A DNA stretch of 50,711 bases from a virus: positions 1 through 50,711 of the IMG/VR virus record IMGVR_UViG_3300046460_000275; one strand, written 5' to 3'. The translations under genes were made by a program, and so were the position numbers. This document shows, piece after piece, positions 2,795 to 49,378 of this stretch. The notes under the pieces are model-generated. The model was not told where the DNA came from. It made no database searches and saw only the letters and a program-made list of their open reading frames with translations. How positions within the stretch are numbered: the first letter of the stretch is position 1; the number at the start of each line of letters is the position of its first letter.

Positions 2795-2887
2795 ATGAGC
2801 CCATCGCAAGCGATGTTACTATCGTTGGAGCTCTCCGCCTTCGTATGGACTGGCCTAGTATATGGCCTCCTGTGGCTAATACAGTGA
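2795..2887 (+). CDS. 30-residue single-span membrane peptide, copy 1
   Basis: The frame encodes 30 residues with a central hydrophobic helix (LSLELSAFVWTGLVYGLLWL). GGAG stands seven or eight bases before the ATG. Its paralogue inside the prophage (35756-35848) has exactly the same length and matches in the motif FELS-x4-W-x-GLI/V-x-G-x-LWL. Two independent copies with the same length and a good ribosome site argue that this is a real gene despite its size. In both copies it converges on, and overlaps, a minus-strand gene for another small membrane protein. Function unknown. Confidence 0.55.
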   Translation: MSPSQAMLLSLELSAFVWTGLVYGLLWLIQ

Positions 2888-3085
2888 AGGCACGTCTATC
2901 AAGACGCCCAATCCTAATATGACAAGCCATCCTAGCAACAGTATCCAAACTGCAGTGAGCGCAAACACAACTGCGAAGTAAGCTTTGATCAATTTCCAGA
3001 TCTCCGTAGCCAATACAACACGCAAGGCAACGGATTGGTTCAAATCAGCAACTAATGCTGCGTTGTGTTCATGAGATGGCCGCAT
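2876..3085 (-). CDS. small membrane protein convergent with the 30-residue peptide, copy 1
   Basis: The frame is open from 3193, but the ATG at 3085 gives a more compact protein of 69 residues. One long hydrophobic segment (FAVVFALTAVWILLLGWLVI) follows a hydrophilic N terminus. The segment aligns with the minus-strand protein of the prophage copy (FAIAVGLTAAWMVLLAWLLV) along with the preceding Lys-Ala. The 3' ends of this gene and the plus-strand peptide overlap by 12 bases. The start is uncertain because no strong ribosome site is seen. Role unknown; see the finding on the paired module. Confidence 0.45.
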   Translation of the reverse strand: MRPSHEHNAALVADLNQSVALRVVLATEIWKLIKAYFAVVFALTAVWILLLGWLVILGLGVLIDVPSLY

Positions 3086-3300
3086 TGCGGCTCTCAACAC
3101 GGTCTGTCGTAGCTGGGATGGTGCCGGGCGGGTCTCTGCGGTGGAGTGGAATTCTGGGTCGAATTCGCCCGCCCGACTTCCGCAGAGTGCCATAAGCAGT
3201 TGCTAATTCAATGCGACATTGGCGGTATGCTTACCTCCTTTTGGCTGAACATACCCGACGCTGCCCACCGAGGCAGATTTTTCAATTTAGGAAAACTATG

Positions 3301-3842
3301 AACGCAGCATATTTCTCCCCGTTGTTTGGACCGTTATTTCAACCCCTAATGACGCCCAATTTGAGCGTCCGGATCGGCCTAACTTACGAGCCCGAGACCG
3401 AGGCCCTACTCGCCCGGTTTACGACTCCCCCGACCTCCGACCGCAAGTTTATCCGATCGTCCCCTCAAATTGGTACTGAGACTGGCGCCTACCAGAGTGG
3501 TAGCGGTACGCTGGTCAACATGGGTGGCGTCCATGGAATTCTCACGGCGGGCCATGTTTTTTGCGAGATCGAGCGCGACGGCCATTTCGTGATGCCCTCG
3601 GCAACTGGACCAGGTGACCGCGTAGATGCTCACAAGGTGGAAATCGAGCCAGGCGCCACATTATCAACTGGTCAGGCGAGGTCAGTCGTTTAGGACCTGA
3701 TATTGGTTTCACACGTCTGCCAAATGAAGTCAGAGACTGGGCGCTCCAAAACCTCGCATTCTATAATTACGCGGGGCAGACTAAGGCAAGATGGTGCAAA
3801 ATGCGGCAAACTACAGTGATCAATGCCACCATAATGCGTTGA
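3301..3842 (+). pseudogene. trypsin-like peptidase, frameshifted and truncated
   Basis: The first frame (3301 to about 3655) carries the N-terminal half of a chymotrypsin-fold protease, with GSGTLVNMGGVHGILTAGHV, in which TAGH is the catalytic histidine motif. Around 3650-3662 the homology shifts by one base. The other frame continues as NWSGEVSRLGPDIGFTRLP, where the aspartate of PDIGF is the expected second triad residue, and stops at 3842. The serine-containing third of the domain (GxSGG) is absent, so the gene is broken by both a frameshift and a 3' loss. It ends only about 45 bases before the tRNA. A sequencing error could explain the frameshift but not the missing C terminus. Confidence 0.6.
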
Positions 3843-3888: not shown

Positions 3889-3978
3889 TGGCGGATGGGG
3901 TGGGATTCGAACCCACGGTACGGTTTCCCGCACGCCGGTTTTCAAGACCGGTTCCTTAAACCACTCGGACACCCATCC
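3889..3978 (-). tRNA. tRNA-Ser (anticodon UGA)
   Basis: Read on the minus strand, the acceptor arms GGATGGG and CCCATCC pair, followed by G and an encoded CCA. The anticodon stem CCGGT/ACCGG encloses the loop CTTGAAA (anticodon TGA). A long class II variable arm and a T arm with GGTTCGAATCC follow. The length of 90 bases is normal for tRNA-Ser. The 5' half of the gene (3940-3978) is part of the prophage attachment core, and everything upstream of it is now phage DNA, so its promoter must be supplied by the element. Confidence 0.95.
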
Positions 3979-3980
3979 AA
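3940..3980. repeat. attL core (41-bp direct repeat)
   Basis: Identical over 41 bases to 49338-49378. It begins at the 3' edge of the anticodon loop of tRNA-Ser (TTTCAAG on the plus strand) and extends to two bases beyond the tRNA 5' end. Flanking bases differ immediately outside on both sides. Host DNA with the tRNA 3' half lies to the left and phage DNA to the right. Confidence 0.92.
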
Positions 3981-4055: not shown

Positions 4056-5210
4056 TCATTCGCGCGAGGTCTGTTTAGCAGCTTTGATAGCGGCGTCAAC
4101 TTGCTCTGCGGCGTTCGCCTGCATGCCGGGCATGACATGTGAATAGAGGTCCAGCGTAATGCCGACGGTGGAGTGACCGAGGCGCTCGCTGGCGATCTTC
4201 GGATGCACGCCCGCCGCCAGGAGTTGGGTTGCGTGGCTATGCCTAAGATCGTGGAACCGGATCTGGGGCAGGGTGGTCTTGCCGATCTGCCGTGTCCATT
4301 CGTGGGTGAGGGAAACTGGCTTCAGCGGGTTGCCATCGGCTTGCGCCACGACAAAAGAATCCTTGTCCGGTCTGAGACCAATTTTCAACTGCTCTTCAGC
4401 CTGGGCTGTCTTGTGTCGGCGCAGTTCCTCAAGTACCGTCGATGACAGCGACACGGTGCGCGCCTTTCCGGACTTCGTCTCCTTGTAGCGAACCTCTGTC
4501 CCTACCTGCTCGGCGCTCTCTGAGATCGACAAGGTTGCGGTCTTGAGATCGACGTGTCGCCAGCGCAAAGCGAGGATCTCGCCCCTCCGCAGGCCGCACA
4601 TTGAGGCCAGGAGGGCAGGTATGAGCATGCGGGTGGGCCGAAGCGCATCCAACATATCGGACGTCTCAGCGGCGCCATATGCGGTCATTGCCACGCGCTC
4701 CGTTTTCGGCGGCCTCGTGACAGCTACAGGGTTTTTCTTGAGAAGATCCCACTTCAGCGCCTGCTCCATGGCCGTCAGCATAACCCGCCGGCAATGGCCG
4801 ACCGTGCGCGGCGCGAGACCGCCTTTGCCGTCACGCCGGCCGCTTTCCAACAGCTTCGTCCAGCATCCGTCGATCTTGGCCGCGGTCAACTTGTTCAGCG
4901 TGATCGAGCCGATGACCGGTGCCACGTTCTTCAGCAGCAATTCCTCATAGCGGCTGTGGGTCTTGGGCGAGACGTTGGCCTTCTCATGCTTCAACCAAGC
5001 TTCGAAGAACTCGCGGACAGTCGTTTTAGATGGCTCAATGTAAGAGCCGCCATCCATCTCCGCGATGAGGCGGGCGCATTCGGTTTCCGCCTGGCGCTTC
5101 GTTCCTTTGAAAGTGTGCCACTTCCGGCGGCGCTTGCCATTTTCAGGGTTCGGAAGGTCGAGTACGATGGCCCAGGTGCCGGGCGAGCGTTCGGTGATGT
5201 GGCCTCTCAT
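4056..5210 (-). CDS. phage tyrosine recombinase (integrase)
   Basis: Catalyses site-specific recombination between attP and the tRNA-Ser attB. The protein has 384 residues, the usual length. It has an N-terminal arm-binding domain (about 1-60), a SAM-like core-binding domain (about 62-160, FFEAWLKHEKANVSPKTHSRY) and the catalytic domain (about 175-370). Catalytic residues are visible: R208 in CGLRRGEILALRW, a lysine near 246 in KETKSGK, H320 and R323 in HDLRHSHATQL, H346 in LGHSTVG and Y356 in LDLYSH. The start overlaps the stop of the upstream RHH gene by four bases, so the two are translationally coupled. A C-terminal segment (VDAAIKAAKQ) is nearly repeated beyond attR in a relict integrase. 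Confidence 0.97.
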   Translation of the reverse strand: MRGHITERSPGTWAIVLDLPNPENGKRRRKWHTFKGTKRQAETECARLIAEMDGGSYIEPSKTTVREFFEAWLKHEKANVSPKTHSRYEELLLKNVAPVIGSITLNKLTAAKIDGCWTKLLESGRRDGKGGLAPRTVGHCRRVMLTAMEQALKWDLLKKNPVAVTRPPKTERVAMTAYGAAETSDMLDALRPTRMLIPALLASMCGLRRGEILALRWRHVDLKTATLSISESAEQVGTEVRYKETKSGKARTVSLSSTVLEELRRHKTAQAEEQLKIGLRPDKDSFVVAQADGNPLKPVSLTHEWTRQIGKTTLPQIRFHDLRHSHATQLLAAGVHPKIASERLGHSTVGITLDLYSHVMPGMQANAAEQVDAAIKAAKQTSRE

Positions 5211-35132: not shown

Positions 35133-35665
35133 TCCACTATTCCTTCATCTATCCTGAGACCGGCATCATCGATCAGAGCGGCTATTGCCCCGACGCGTCG
35201 TGCCTGCCCGAGCTGCCGGAAGGATGCGTCTTCAAGCTGGGCTTTGTTGGCAATCCGGAGGCCGAGCGCTTCGACGGCGACGACCTTATCCCCTACTGCC
35301 CCGACAAGACGCAGGAGGAGCTCGCCTTTCTGGTGGCGCTTGAACGCGGCCGCCGCCTATCGTCCGGCTTTGATTACGATTTCGGCGACACGCGCGGCGT
35401 CCACCATGTCGGCACGACAGAGGCCGACATGGCTGGATGGCGGGAGGTCAGCGATATGGCCTTCAAGGCGATTGCCCGCGACGACGTCAGCAAGGAAATC
35501 ATGATCGCGACGGACACCGGGCCAGCCGTCGTGACAGCAGCCGAATGGCTGGATGTTCTCGACGCTGCGGAAGCCTTTCGGCAGCCGATATGGACGGCCA
35601 GCTTCATCCTGCAGTCATTGAGCCCGATCCCGCAAGACGTTACCGCCGACGCGCTCTGGCCCTAA
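35129..35665 (+). CDS. tail fibre accessory protein (DUF4376-like region)
   Basis: The protein has 178 residues from the ATG at 35129, overlapping the tip stop. It has IHYSFIYPETGIIDQSGYCP and, in the second half, LVALERGRRLSSGFDYDFGD, followed by AEWLDVLDAAEAFRQPIWTA. The latter resembles the C-terminal DUF4376 module of tail fibre and fibre-assembly proteins. It closes the tail operon. Confidence 0.6.
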   Translation: MIHYSFIYPETGIIDQSGYCPDASCLPELPEGCVFKLGFVGNPEAERFDGDDLIPYCPDKTQEELAFLVALERGRRLSSGFDYDFGDTRGVHHVGTTEADMAGWREVSDMAFKAIARDDVSKEIMIATDTGPAVVTAAEWLDVLDAAEAFRQPIWTASFILQSLSPIPQDVTADALWP

Positions 35666-35755: not shown

Positions 35756-35848
35756 ATGAGCCGATTGCAGTCCCTCATTCTATTCTTTGAGCTGTCCGTT
35801 CTTATTTGGGCCGGCCTCATATTCGGCATGTTGTGGCTGCTCGACTGA
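35756..35848 (+). CDS. 30-residue single-span membrane peptide, copy 2
   Basis: Reads MSRLQSLILFFELSVLIWAG and ten more residues ending in GMLWLLD. GGAGG lies seven bases before the ATG. It is the same length as, and similar to, the peptide at 2795-2887 left of the prophage. It sits between the tail and lysis modules and is overlapped for 69 of its 93 bases by the minus-strand membrane gene 35780-35971. A holin-like or antiholin-like role is possible but unproven. Confidence 0.55.
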   Translation: MSRLQSLILFFELSVLIWAGLIFGMLWLLD

Positions 35849-35971
35849 CTCTGTCCCGAACAGGGTACTGAAGCCAAGGACGAGTAGCCACGCGAGCAGC
35901 ACCATCCATGCTGCGGTAAGCCCAACCGCTATCGCGAACGATGCCTTAAACATTTCTCGTCTCGCTATCAT
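35780..35971 (-). CDS. small membrane protein antisense to the 30-residue peptide, copy 2
   Basis: The protein has 63 residues from the ATG at 35971; a TTG at 35998 would add nine. The membrane helix FAIAVGLTAAWMVLLAWLLV is followed by a hydrophilic tail (GTESVEQPQHAEYEAGPN). The helix and the preceding Lys-Ala match the minus-strand protein at 2876-3085. The hydrophilic tail lies within the antisense overlap and has no counterpart in copy 1, which stops earlier. Function unknown. Confidence 0.5.
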   Translation of the reverse strand: MIARREMFKASFAIAVGLTAAWMVLLAWLLVLGFSTLFGTESVEQPQHAEYEAGPNKNGQLKE

Positions 35972-36142
35972 CCGGATTGAACGCGCTTCGCGGAGCAATG
36001 GTTCAAGAATCGGGCCCGATCAATGACGGACTGCAAGTAACCTTACCCACTAACCACTCCCTCACTTTCCACCGTAGCGTATTCAAACGCGCGGCGAGGC
36101 ATTCGCCCAAAACAGGGTGGGCGTGACCACCAATCCCATCAT

Positions 36143-36170
36143 GGCCGTCCATTGAGGCGGCCTTTTCTTT
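36143..36170 (+). terminator. rho-independent terminator before the endolysin gene
   Basis: Arms GGCCG and CGGCC flank a 10-base loop and are followed by TTTTCTTT. It lies only 16 bases upstream of the endolysin start, separating the tail operon from lysis. Late transcripts would have to read through it, so antitermination or a lysis promoter further upstream may matter. Confidence 0.6.
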
Positions 36171-36185
36171 GCAAGGAACATCACC

Positions 36186-36923
36186 ATGACAACGATTCTG
36201 GACATCCAGAAGCGCTTGCTTGCGCTTGGCTATTCGCTGGCGAAGTTCGGCGTCGATGGCAAGAAGAGCGAAGGCGGCGAGACAGACGCTGCGATCAGGG
36301 CCTTTCAGGCGGCCGTCGGTCTTTTCGTCGATGGCAAGGCGGGGCCGCAGACCCAGACCGCACTCGCGCGCGCCGTGGCCCCCGTCAAGCCTGGCAGGCC
36401 GGAACCGGACAAGTCGGCAATGACGGCGCCGCCGCCGCTGTCAAGCGGCGAAGGGCACGCTGCGGCACCACCGAACGTGGCGAGCCTAAAGCTTCTCGAT
36501 ACCGCCCGGCCGATCAAGGAATTGATCTGGCACTGCACCGCCACGCCCGAGGGCAAGGACTATACCGTCGATGATATCCGCGCCTGGCACAAGCAGCGCG
36601 GTTGGTCCGATATCGGCTATCACTACGTCGTCTATCGCGACGGGCGGATCATGCTCGGCCGCCCGGTGGGCCAGGTAGGCGCGCATGTCGAAGGCCACAA
36701 CACCGGAACGATCGGCTGCTCATATGTCGGCGGCGTCTCGGCCGATGGCAAGAGCGCAAAGGACACCCGCACCGCGGCGCAGCGGGCCTCCATGCTCTGG
36801 CTGACCCAGCAACTCCGAAGGAAGTTCGCCGGCATCGTCAAGGTGTCCGGCCATAACCAGTACGCCGCAAAGGCGTGCCCCTCCTTCGACGTCCGAAAGG
36901 ACGCTCTCGGCAAGATTATTTGA
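36186..36923 (+). CDS. endolysin: N-acetylmuramoyl-L-alanine amidase with peptidoglycan-binding domain
   Basis: The protein has 245 residues. Residues 1-65 are a PG_binding_1 domain (ILDIQKRLLALGYSLAKFGV, then AIRAFQAAVGLFVDGKAGPQ). A Pro/Ala linker follows to about 100. The amidase_2/PGRP domain (105-240) shows zinc ligands H116 (LIWHCTATPEG), H223 (SGHNQ) and C231 (KACPSF), and the Tyr of GYHYVVYRDGRI. It cuts the amide between muramic acid and L-Ala at lysis. No signal peptide, so a holin is required. GGAAC precedes the ATG. Confidence 0.93.
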   Translation: MTTILDIQKRLLALGYSLAKFGVDGKKSEGGETDAAIRAFQAAVGLFVDGKAGPQTQTALARAVAPVKPGRPEPDKSAMTAPPPLSSGEGHAAAPPNVASLKLLDTARPIKELIWHCTATPEGKDYTVDDIRAWHKQRGWSDIGYHYVVYRDGRIMLGRPVGQVGAHVEGHNTGTIGCSYVGGVSADGKSAKDTRTAAQRASMLWLTQQLRRKFAGIVKVSGHNQYAAKACPSFDVRKDALGKII

Positions 36924-36936
36924 AAGGACAGGCCCA

Positions 36937-37299
36937 ATGAAGATCTTCAACCCGCTCACCACGGCAACCTCCATCGGTGTTGCTATCCGTTACCTCATCA
37001 CGATCGCAGGCTCCCTTCTCACCATCCTCGGCATTGTGGGATGGCTCACGTCCGATCAGGTTCAGGAATTGAGCCAGAAGGTGCAGGACATCAGCGCGCA
37101 GCTGCCTGGGCTGCTGGCTGCGGCCGGCGGCATCATCGCACTCGTCATGCCGATCTATGCCACCATCACCAAGTCGAGCACCGACCGGGCCGCAGAGGTG
37201 GCAAAGGAAGTCGATAAACAGATCCCCGAGCGCTCACCAGTGGTTATCAAGACGCCGGCCGGAGTTCCCGACATCGTGGTGCCCGGCAAGGGGACGTAG
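36937..37299 (+). CDS. holin-like protein with two membrane segments
   Basis: The protein has 120 residues. Two hydrophobic helices are seen: VAIRYLITIAGSLLTILGIV (about 16-36) and LLAAAGGIIALVMPIYATIT (about 58-78), separated by a polar turn (SDQVQELSQKVQDISAQ), with a hydrophilic C terminus. Its position 13 bases after the endolysin and its topology fit a small holin that forms the inner-membrane lesion. Confidence 0.75.
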   Translation: MKIFNPLTTATSIGVAIRYLITIAGSLLTILGIVGWLTSDQVQELSQKVQDISAQLPGLLAAAGGIIALVMPIYATITKSSTDRAAEVAKEVDKQIPERSPVVIKTPAGVPDIVVPGKGT

Positions 37300-49337: not shown

Positions 49338-49378
49338 TTTCAAGACCGGTTCCTTAAACCACTCGGACACCCATCCAA
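49338..49378. repeat. attR core (41-bp direct repeat)
   Basis: Identical to 3940-3980. It represents only the 5' half of tRNA-Ser, fused on its left to phage DNA, so no functional tRNA is present here. DNA to the right includes a relict integrase end. Confidence 0.92.

Follow-up and report, generated by a model that had tools for sequence, protein, structure and literature searches.

The window studied here, the whole stretch of 50,711 nucleotides of IMG/VR virus record IMGVR_UViG_3300046460_000275, contains two homologous copies of a pair of tiny genes that converge tail to tail, one copy in host DNA and one within a prophage, and between the copies amino-acid conservation is confined to the frames of these two genes. 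We think that the best explanation, to which we would give an even chance, is that of a host-derived, selectively maintained module of two membrane peptides, coupled by overlapping convergent transcripts, the prophage copy being a moron.

Two copies on either side of a prophage boundary

The features on which the argument turns are the following (coordinates are those of the window).

2795..2887, plus strand: copy 1 plus-strand peptide, 30 aa, single span, on the host side of attL; an ORF with GGAG upstream
2876..2992, minus strand: copy 1 minus-strand protein, 38 aa from a likely TTG start; supported by helix similarity and frame constraint
3889-3978: tRNA-Ser(tga), overlapping the attL core
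3940..3980: attL core, lying in the 5' part of tRNA-Ser and reaching slightly beyond it; the 41 bp recur exactly, as a direct repeat, at 49338-49378
4056..5210, minus strand: tyrosine integrase, at the left end of the prophage (PHROG phrog_1 integrase, 3.3e-66)
35756..35848, plus strand: copy 2 plus-strand peptide, 30 aa, inside the prophage; an ORF with GGAGG upstream
35780..35953, minus strand: copy 2 minus-strand protein, 57 aa from a likely ATG at 35953; supported by ORF, alignment and frame test
36186..36923, plus strand: endolysin (amidase), downstream of copy 2 (PHROG phrog_822, 5.7e-54)
36937..37299, plus strand: candidate holin, placed after the endolysin (weak match to Pfam Phage_holin_10, E 0.005, below the cut-off)
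49338..49378: attR core, 41-bp exact direct repeat

The prophage is delimited by the 41-bp repeat, which overlaps tRNA-Ser, and its recognised genes are those for integrase, terminase, tape measure, tail fibre and endolysin. The original prediction had placed one copy of the pair outside and one inside a prophage, and the repeat (3940-3980 and 49338-49378) places them just so: copy 1 is about 0.85 kb outside, in host DNA without lysis genes, and copy 2 is inside, between a tail-region gene that ends at 35665 and the endolysin.

The two ORF pairs were found where they had been predicted, at 2795-2887(+)/2876-3085(-) and 35756-35848(+)/35780-35971(-), each with a 30-aa single-span peptide on the plus strand facing a small single-span protein on the minus strand. 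The plus-strand peptides read MSPSQAMLLSLELSAFVWTGLVYGLLWLIQ (copy 1, 2795-2887) and MSRLQSLILFFELSVLIWAGLIFGMLWLLD (copy 2, 35756-35848), and the helices of the minus-strand proteins begin MIKAYFAVVFALTAVWILLLGWLVILGLGVLI.. in copy 1 and MFKASFAIAVGLTAAWMVLLAWLLVLGFSTLF.. in copy 2. All products (30 aa on the plus strand, 38-57 aa on the minus strand) have one hydrophobic stretch and are predicted to insert into the membrane; both plus-strand helices of the window carry a glutamate within this stretch and little positive charge. The antisense overlaps, originally given as 12 nt in copy 1 and 69 nt in copy 2, were confirmed, the longer one being due to a C-terminal read-through tail of the copy 2 minus-strand protein, antisense to the plus-strand peptide, which copy 1 lacks.

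Amino-acid conservation in the frames of both genes

The DNA of the two copies can be aligned without a gap from before the plus-strand start, through the convergent junction, to about position 3010, just upstream of the likely minus-strand start, with an identity of about 65% in the plus-strand gene and about 61% in the minus-strand gene. At the protein level, the plus-strand peptides, of equal length (30 aa) and noted as alike from the outset, are 47% identical, and the minus-strand helices, which had also been said to align, are 45% identical across 38 columns. Substitutions at codon positions 1/2/3 number 11/5/17 in the plus-strand gene and 11/6/18 in the minus-strand gene, third positions of each gene's own strand being the richest.

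A comparison of conservation frame by frame had been proposed as a check. We placed the same substitutions at random and scored amino-acid conservation in each frame; in this permutation test of one pairwise comparison, the plus-strand frame (p<0.0002) and the minus-strand frame (p=0.0006) are conserved, and the ten remaining frames show no conservation (p=0.29-0.97). Because conservation is confined to the two claimed frames, both genes are most likely coding and constrained in amino-acid sequence, a conclusion based on this one pair of sequences. A pattern combining both strands at fixed spacing matched the two copies and nothing else in the window, with no match in 100 shuffles.

The alignment also bears on the start of the minus-strand genes. 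In copy 1 the longest ORF reaches 3193 and the ATG originally chosen is at 3085; in copy 2 the alternative starts are ATG 35971 and TTG 35998. The shared frame ends just upstream of TTG 2992 and ATG 35953, where there is an indel, and since this indel breaks the frame common to the copies, starts at TTG 2992 (38 aa) and ATG 35953 (57 aa), giving shorter proteins than first proposed, appear likelier from the sequence. Upstream of the minus-strand gene, where the coding frame is not kept, the 8-bp TTGAACCA is kept in both copies (3036-3043 and 35999-36006, minus strand) and is a possible promoter element.

In both copies the stretch where the genes meet lacks a terminator-like site, so that the two transcripts may overlap; no promoter was found there. 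The junction folds slightly better than shuffled sequences (z -1.5 to -2.9).

A Rhizobiaceae family of the plus-strand peptide

A profile made from the two plus-strand peptides matched loci of Rhizobiaceae (best L172, E 6e-6), several of them from one genus, and the family was built by iterating the profile search, new members being added at each round. It consists of single-span proteins of 30-49 aa that start with M-[ST]-x-R and have S-x3-W at a near-fixed distance; longer members have a polar, D..TAS-R/K-like C-terminal tail, which is absent from the window copies. The copy 1 peptide has P in place of the R of M-[ST]-x-R and otherwise agrees, by alignment, with the motif and the single helix. 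A profile from which the window copies were excluded ranks copy 2 first (E 2.5e-9) and copy 1 second (E 4.1e-8) among the ORFs of the window, the next one having E 1.7; the other members were themselves found by searches seeded from the window, so that this is a consistency check rather than a fully independent discovery. With profiles of late-found members alone, the two window ORFs still rank 1 and 2 (E 1e-4 and 0.01).

Family matches (E<=1e-3) are present in 15 of 395 Rhizobiaceae genomes, a sample of a larger set in which the very short queries lower the sensitivity. Members have unrelated genes in their vicinity, and several are on Rhizobium plasmids, unannotated or as "hypothetical protein" (e.g. 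WP_154677480.1). The family, the plus-strand peptide included, had no match above the cut-off in Pfam, NCBIfam or PHROGs. The original remark that this plan is unknown among named families is thus right for these three libraries, but the peptide does belong, on the profile evidence, to a real and widespread Rhizobiaceae family, so far unnamed.

Several plasmid members are near glycoside hydrolase family 16 (GH16), polysaccharide or exopolysaccharide genes. Members also cluster (L230, 2423-3292; L233; L229): they are in tandem in R. gallicum, and two are found within about 1.7 kb in both Rhizobium sp. CB3171 and Rhizobium sp. 007. A general-stress (EcfG-type) promoter, an idea that came from treZ/SDR neighbours, was not found upstream of family members. 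Viral sequences also matched the plus-strand motif and the two-strand pattern, but only by chance, in other proteins or in other frames, and these matches were set aside.

Pairing is rare elsewhere

The original prediction took homologues found only singly as grounds for abandoning the paired unit, and in the rhizobial genomes the relatives of the plus-strand peptide are indeed almost all single. The minus-strand protein of the window is absent at all of the approximately 25 other family loci, and pattern, protein and profile searches of viral contigs, genome contigs, phages, plasmids and the 395 Rhizobiaceae genomes gave no convincing relative of it. Weak matches (e.g. at L162 and L185) were in unrelated or antisense frames. 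We also considered that the minus-strand protein might be a diverged member of the plus-strand family, and rejected this, the minus-strand ORFs being absent from the results of the family-profile search of the window.

The only close convergent partner found elsewhere is of another kind, namely two paralogs of the plus-strand family that face each other in two species:

L227, 2501-2825, R. tumorigenes plasmid: convergent paralog pair, stops 26 bp apart
L231, R. rhododendri plasmid: convergent paralog pair, stops 15 bp apart

When these two species are compared, the block of two genes is more conserved than the sequence that surrounds it. This paralog pair indicates that convergent pairing has arisen more than once, yet it is not the rule, and since the other family members, with few exceptions, occur alone, the plus-strand peptide does not need the minus-strand partner. 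The proposal of a functional unit therefore stands in part: both members are constrained and the pair was inherited together in two contexts (as seen in the gapless alignment, the two-strand pattern and the frame test), but most relatives of the plus-strand peptide are unpaired.

On the phage side, neither member of the pair is present at 80 phage loci around relatives of the endolysin, nor at 31 phage loci with relatives of the gene that precedes the pair. The pair thus looks like an accessory element in this group of phages, and its absence from related loci favours moron-type cargo over a core lysis gene.

Discussion

We favour, evenly balanced as our confidence is, a module of about 0.2 kb in which two tiny single-span peptides of the inner membrane would be encoded by genes converging tail to tail. 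The prophage copy would presumably have come from a host locus of the plus-strand family type and be carried as accessory cargo. By analogy with bacterial small regulatory membrane proteins, the peptides would most likely dock in the membrane, either with one another or with some larger membrane protein, and overlapping convergent transcription could link the expression of the two genes in an antisense manner, possibly with mutual control through the overlapping 3' ends. It should be kept in mind that the constraint on the minus-strand protein depends on two sequences. A bolder version, in which this would be a new kind of compact module, shared by rhizobial chromosomes and prophages, whose convergent tiny membrane peptides act on each other and whose mRNAs, through their overlap, exert antisense control on one another, seems to us quite improbable.

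The alternative that we take most seriously, while still considering it unlikely, is that two unrelated small membrane genes became neighbours by chance, in a segment duplicated by phage-host recombination, and then evolved independently without any coupling. The scarcity of pairing among the plus-strand relatives and the lack of the minus-strand partner anywhere else agree with this, and the pairing could reflect historical hitch-hiking in a short segment rather than functional coupling. Against chance, the copies have diverged to about 61-65% DNA identity and yet both genes are open, constrained and identically spaced in each, and elsewhere in Rhizobium a convergent pair evolved separately. 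The resemblance to type I toxin-antitoxin loci, with a tiny hydrophobic toxin repressed by a convergent, peptide-encoding transcript through antisense pairing at the 3' overlap, is a more doubtful explanation. Small hydrophobic products (30 and 38-57 aa), location in a prophage and overlapping convergent 3' ends fit known layouts (PMC8309996, PMC5848175), as do the lack of a terminator-like site between the genes and the slightly favourable folding of the junction. However, the antitoxin of a type I system is an RNA, whereas the opposite strand here codes for a protein under selection (it may code and have an additional RNA function); the plus-strand family is dispersed and mostly single, with a polar C-terminal tail shared by its longer members; and a glutamate inside the helix with little positive charge does not suit this explanation.

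A holin/antiholin or another core lysis component of the prophage, as initially suggested, would suit two single-span products encoded, in copy 2, just upstream of the endolysin. We nevertheless consider this very unlikely: the lysis regions of related phages do not contain the pair (0 of 80 endolysin loci), copy 1, in host DNA, has no lysis genes near it, the relatives belong to hosts, and with the separate candidate holin after the endolysin, weak as its match is, the phage would not need the pair for this function.

Relation to known systems

CydX, AcrZ, KdpF and MgtS are small regulatory single-span proteins of about 30-50 aa with one helix in the inner membrane. The peptides described here are predicted to share this size, single helix and location, but show no sequence relation to them in Pfam, NCBIfam or PHROGs, and the convergent partner has no counterpart among them. 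The host-derived module that we prefer also resembles phage morons (lysogenic-conversion cargo) in being accessory, inserted between late genes, with one gene opposite to the late-gene strand, and absent from relatives; it differs in consisting of two convergent tiny genes, and the promoter and terminator that a classical moron has of its own were not recognised. The type I toxin-antitoxin loci bsrG/SR4 and yonT/SR6, which are in prophages and have a 3' overlap (PMC8309996, PMC5848175), are similar in their tiny hydrophobic peptide, their prophage location and an opposite-strand transcript overlapping the 3' end; here, in contrast, both strands encode constrained peptides and the plus-strand relatives are mostly single host genes. 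Finally, the plus-strand peptide is by profile a member of the unnamed Rhizobiaceae family (e.g. WP_154677480.1), from which the window differs in that other members are mostly single and many have the C-terminal tail.

The work defines a rhizobial family of small membrane proteins that is missing from the annotation libraries searched, and provides, in host and prophage, natural duplicates of two opposed tiny genes that are both under selection. It may serve as a test case of whether convergent pairs of micro-proteins are functional units, and of what phages gain from them.

The integration site and its surroundings

An att core usually takes in the 3' end of the tRNA gene; here it overlaps tRNA-Ser in its 5' part, and the integrase is also located on the 5' side. 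ORF 3211-3693, between copy 1 and tRNA-Ser, has no match in Pfam; it seems to carry on in another frame past 3693 and is possibly a decayed serine-protease-like gene. The nitrate-reductase-like flank has at most 74% identity to Rhizobium proteins. A terminator-like hairpin with a T-run is present on the plus strand at 36143-36162, after copy 2 and before the start of the endolysin.
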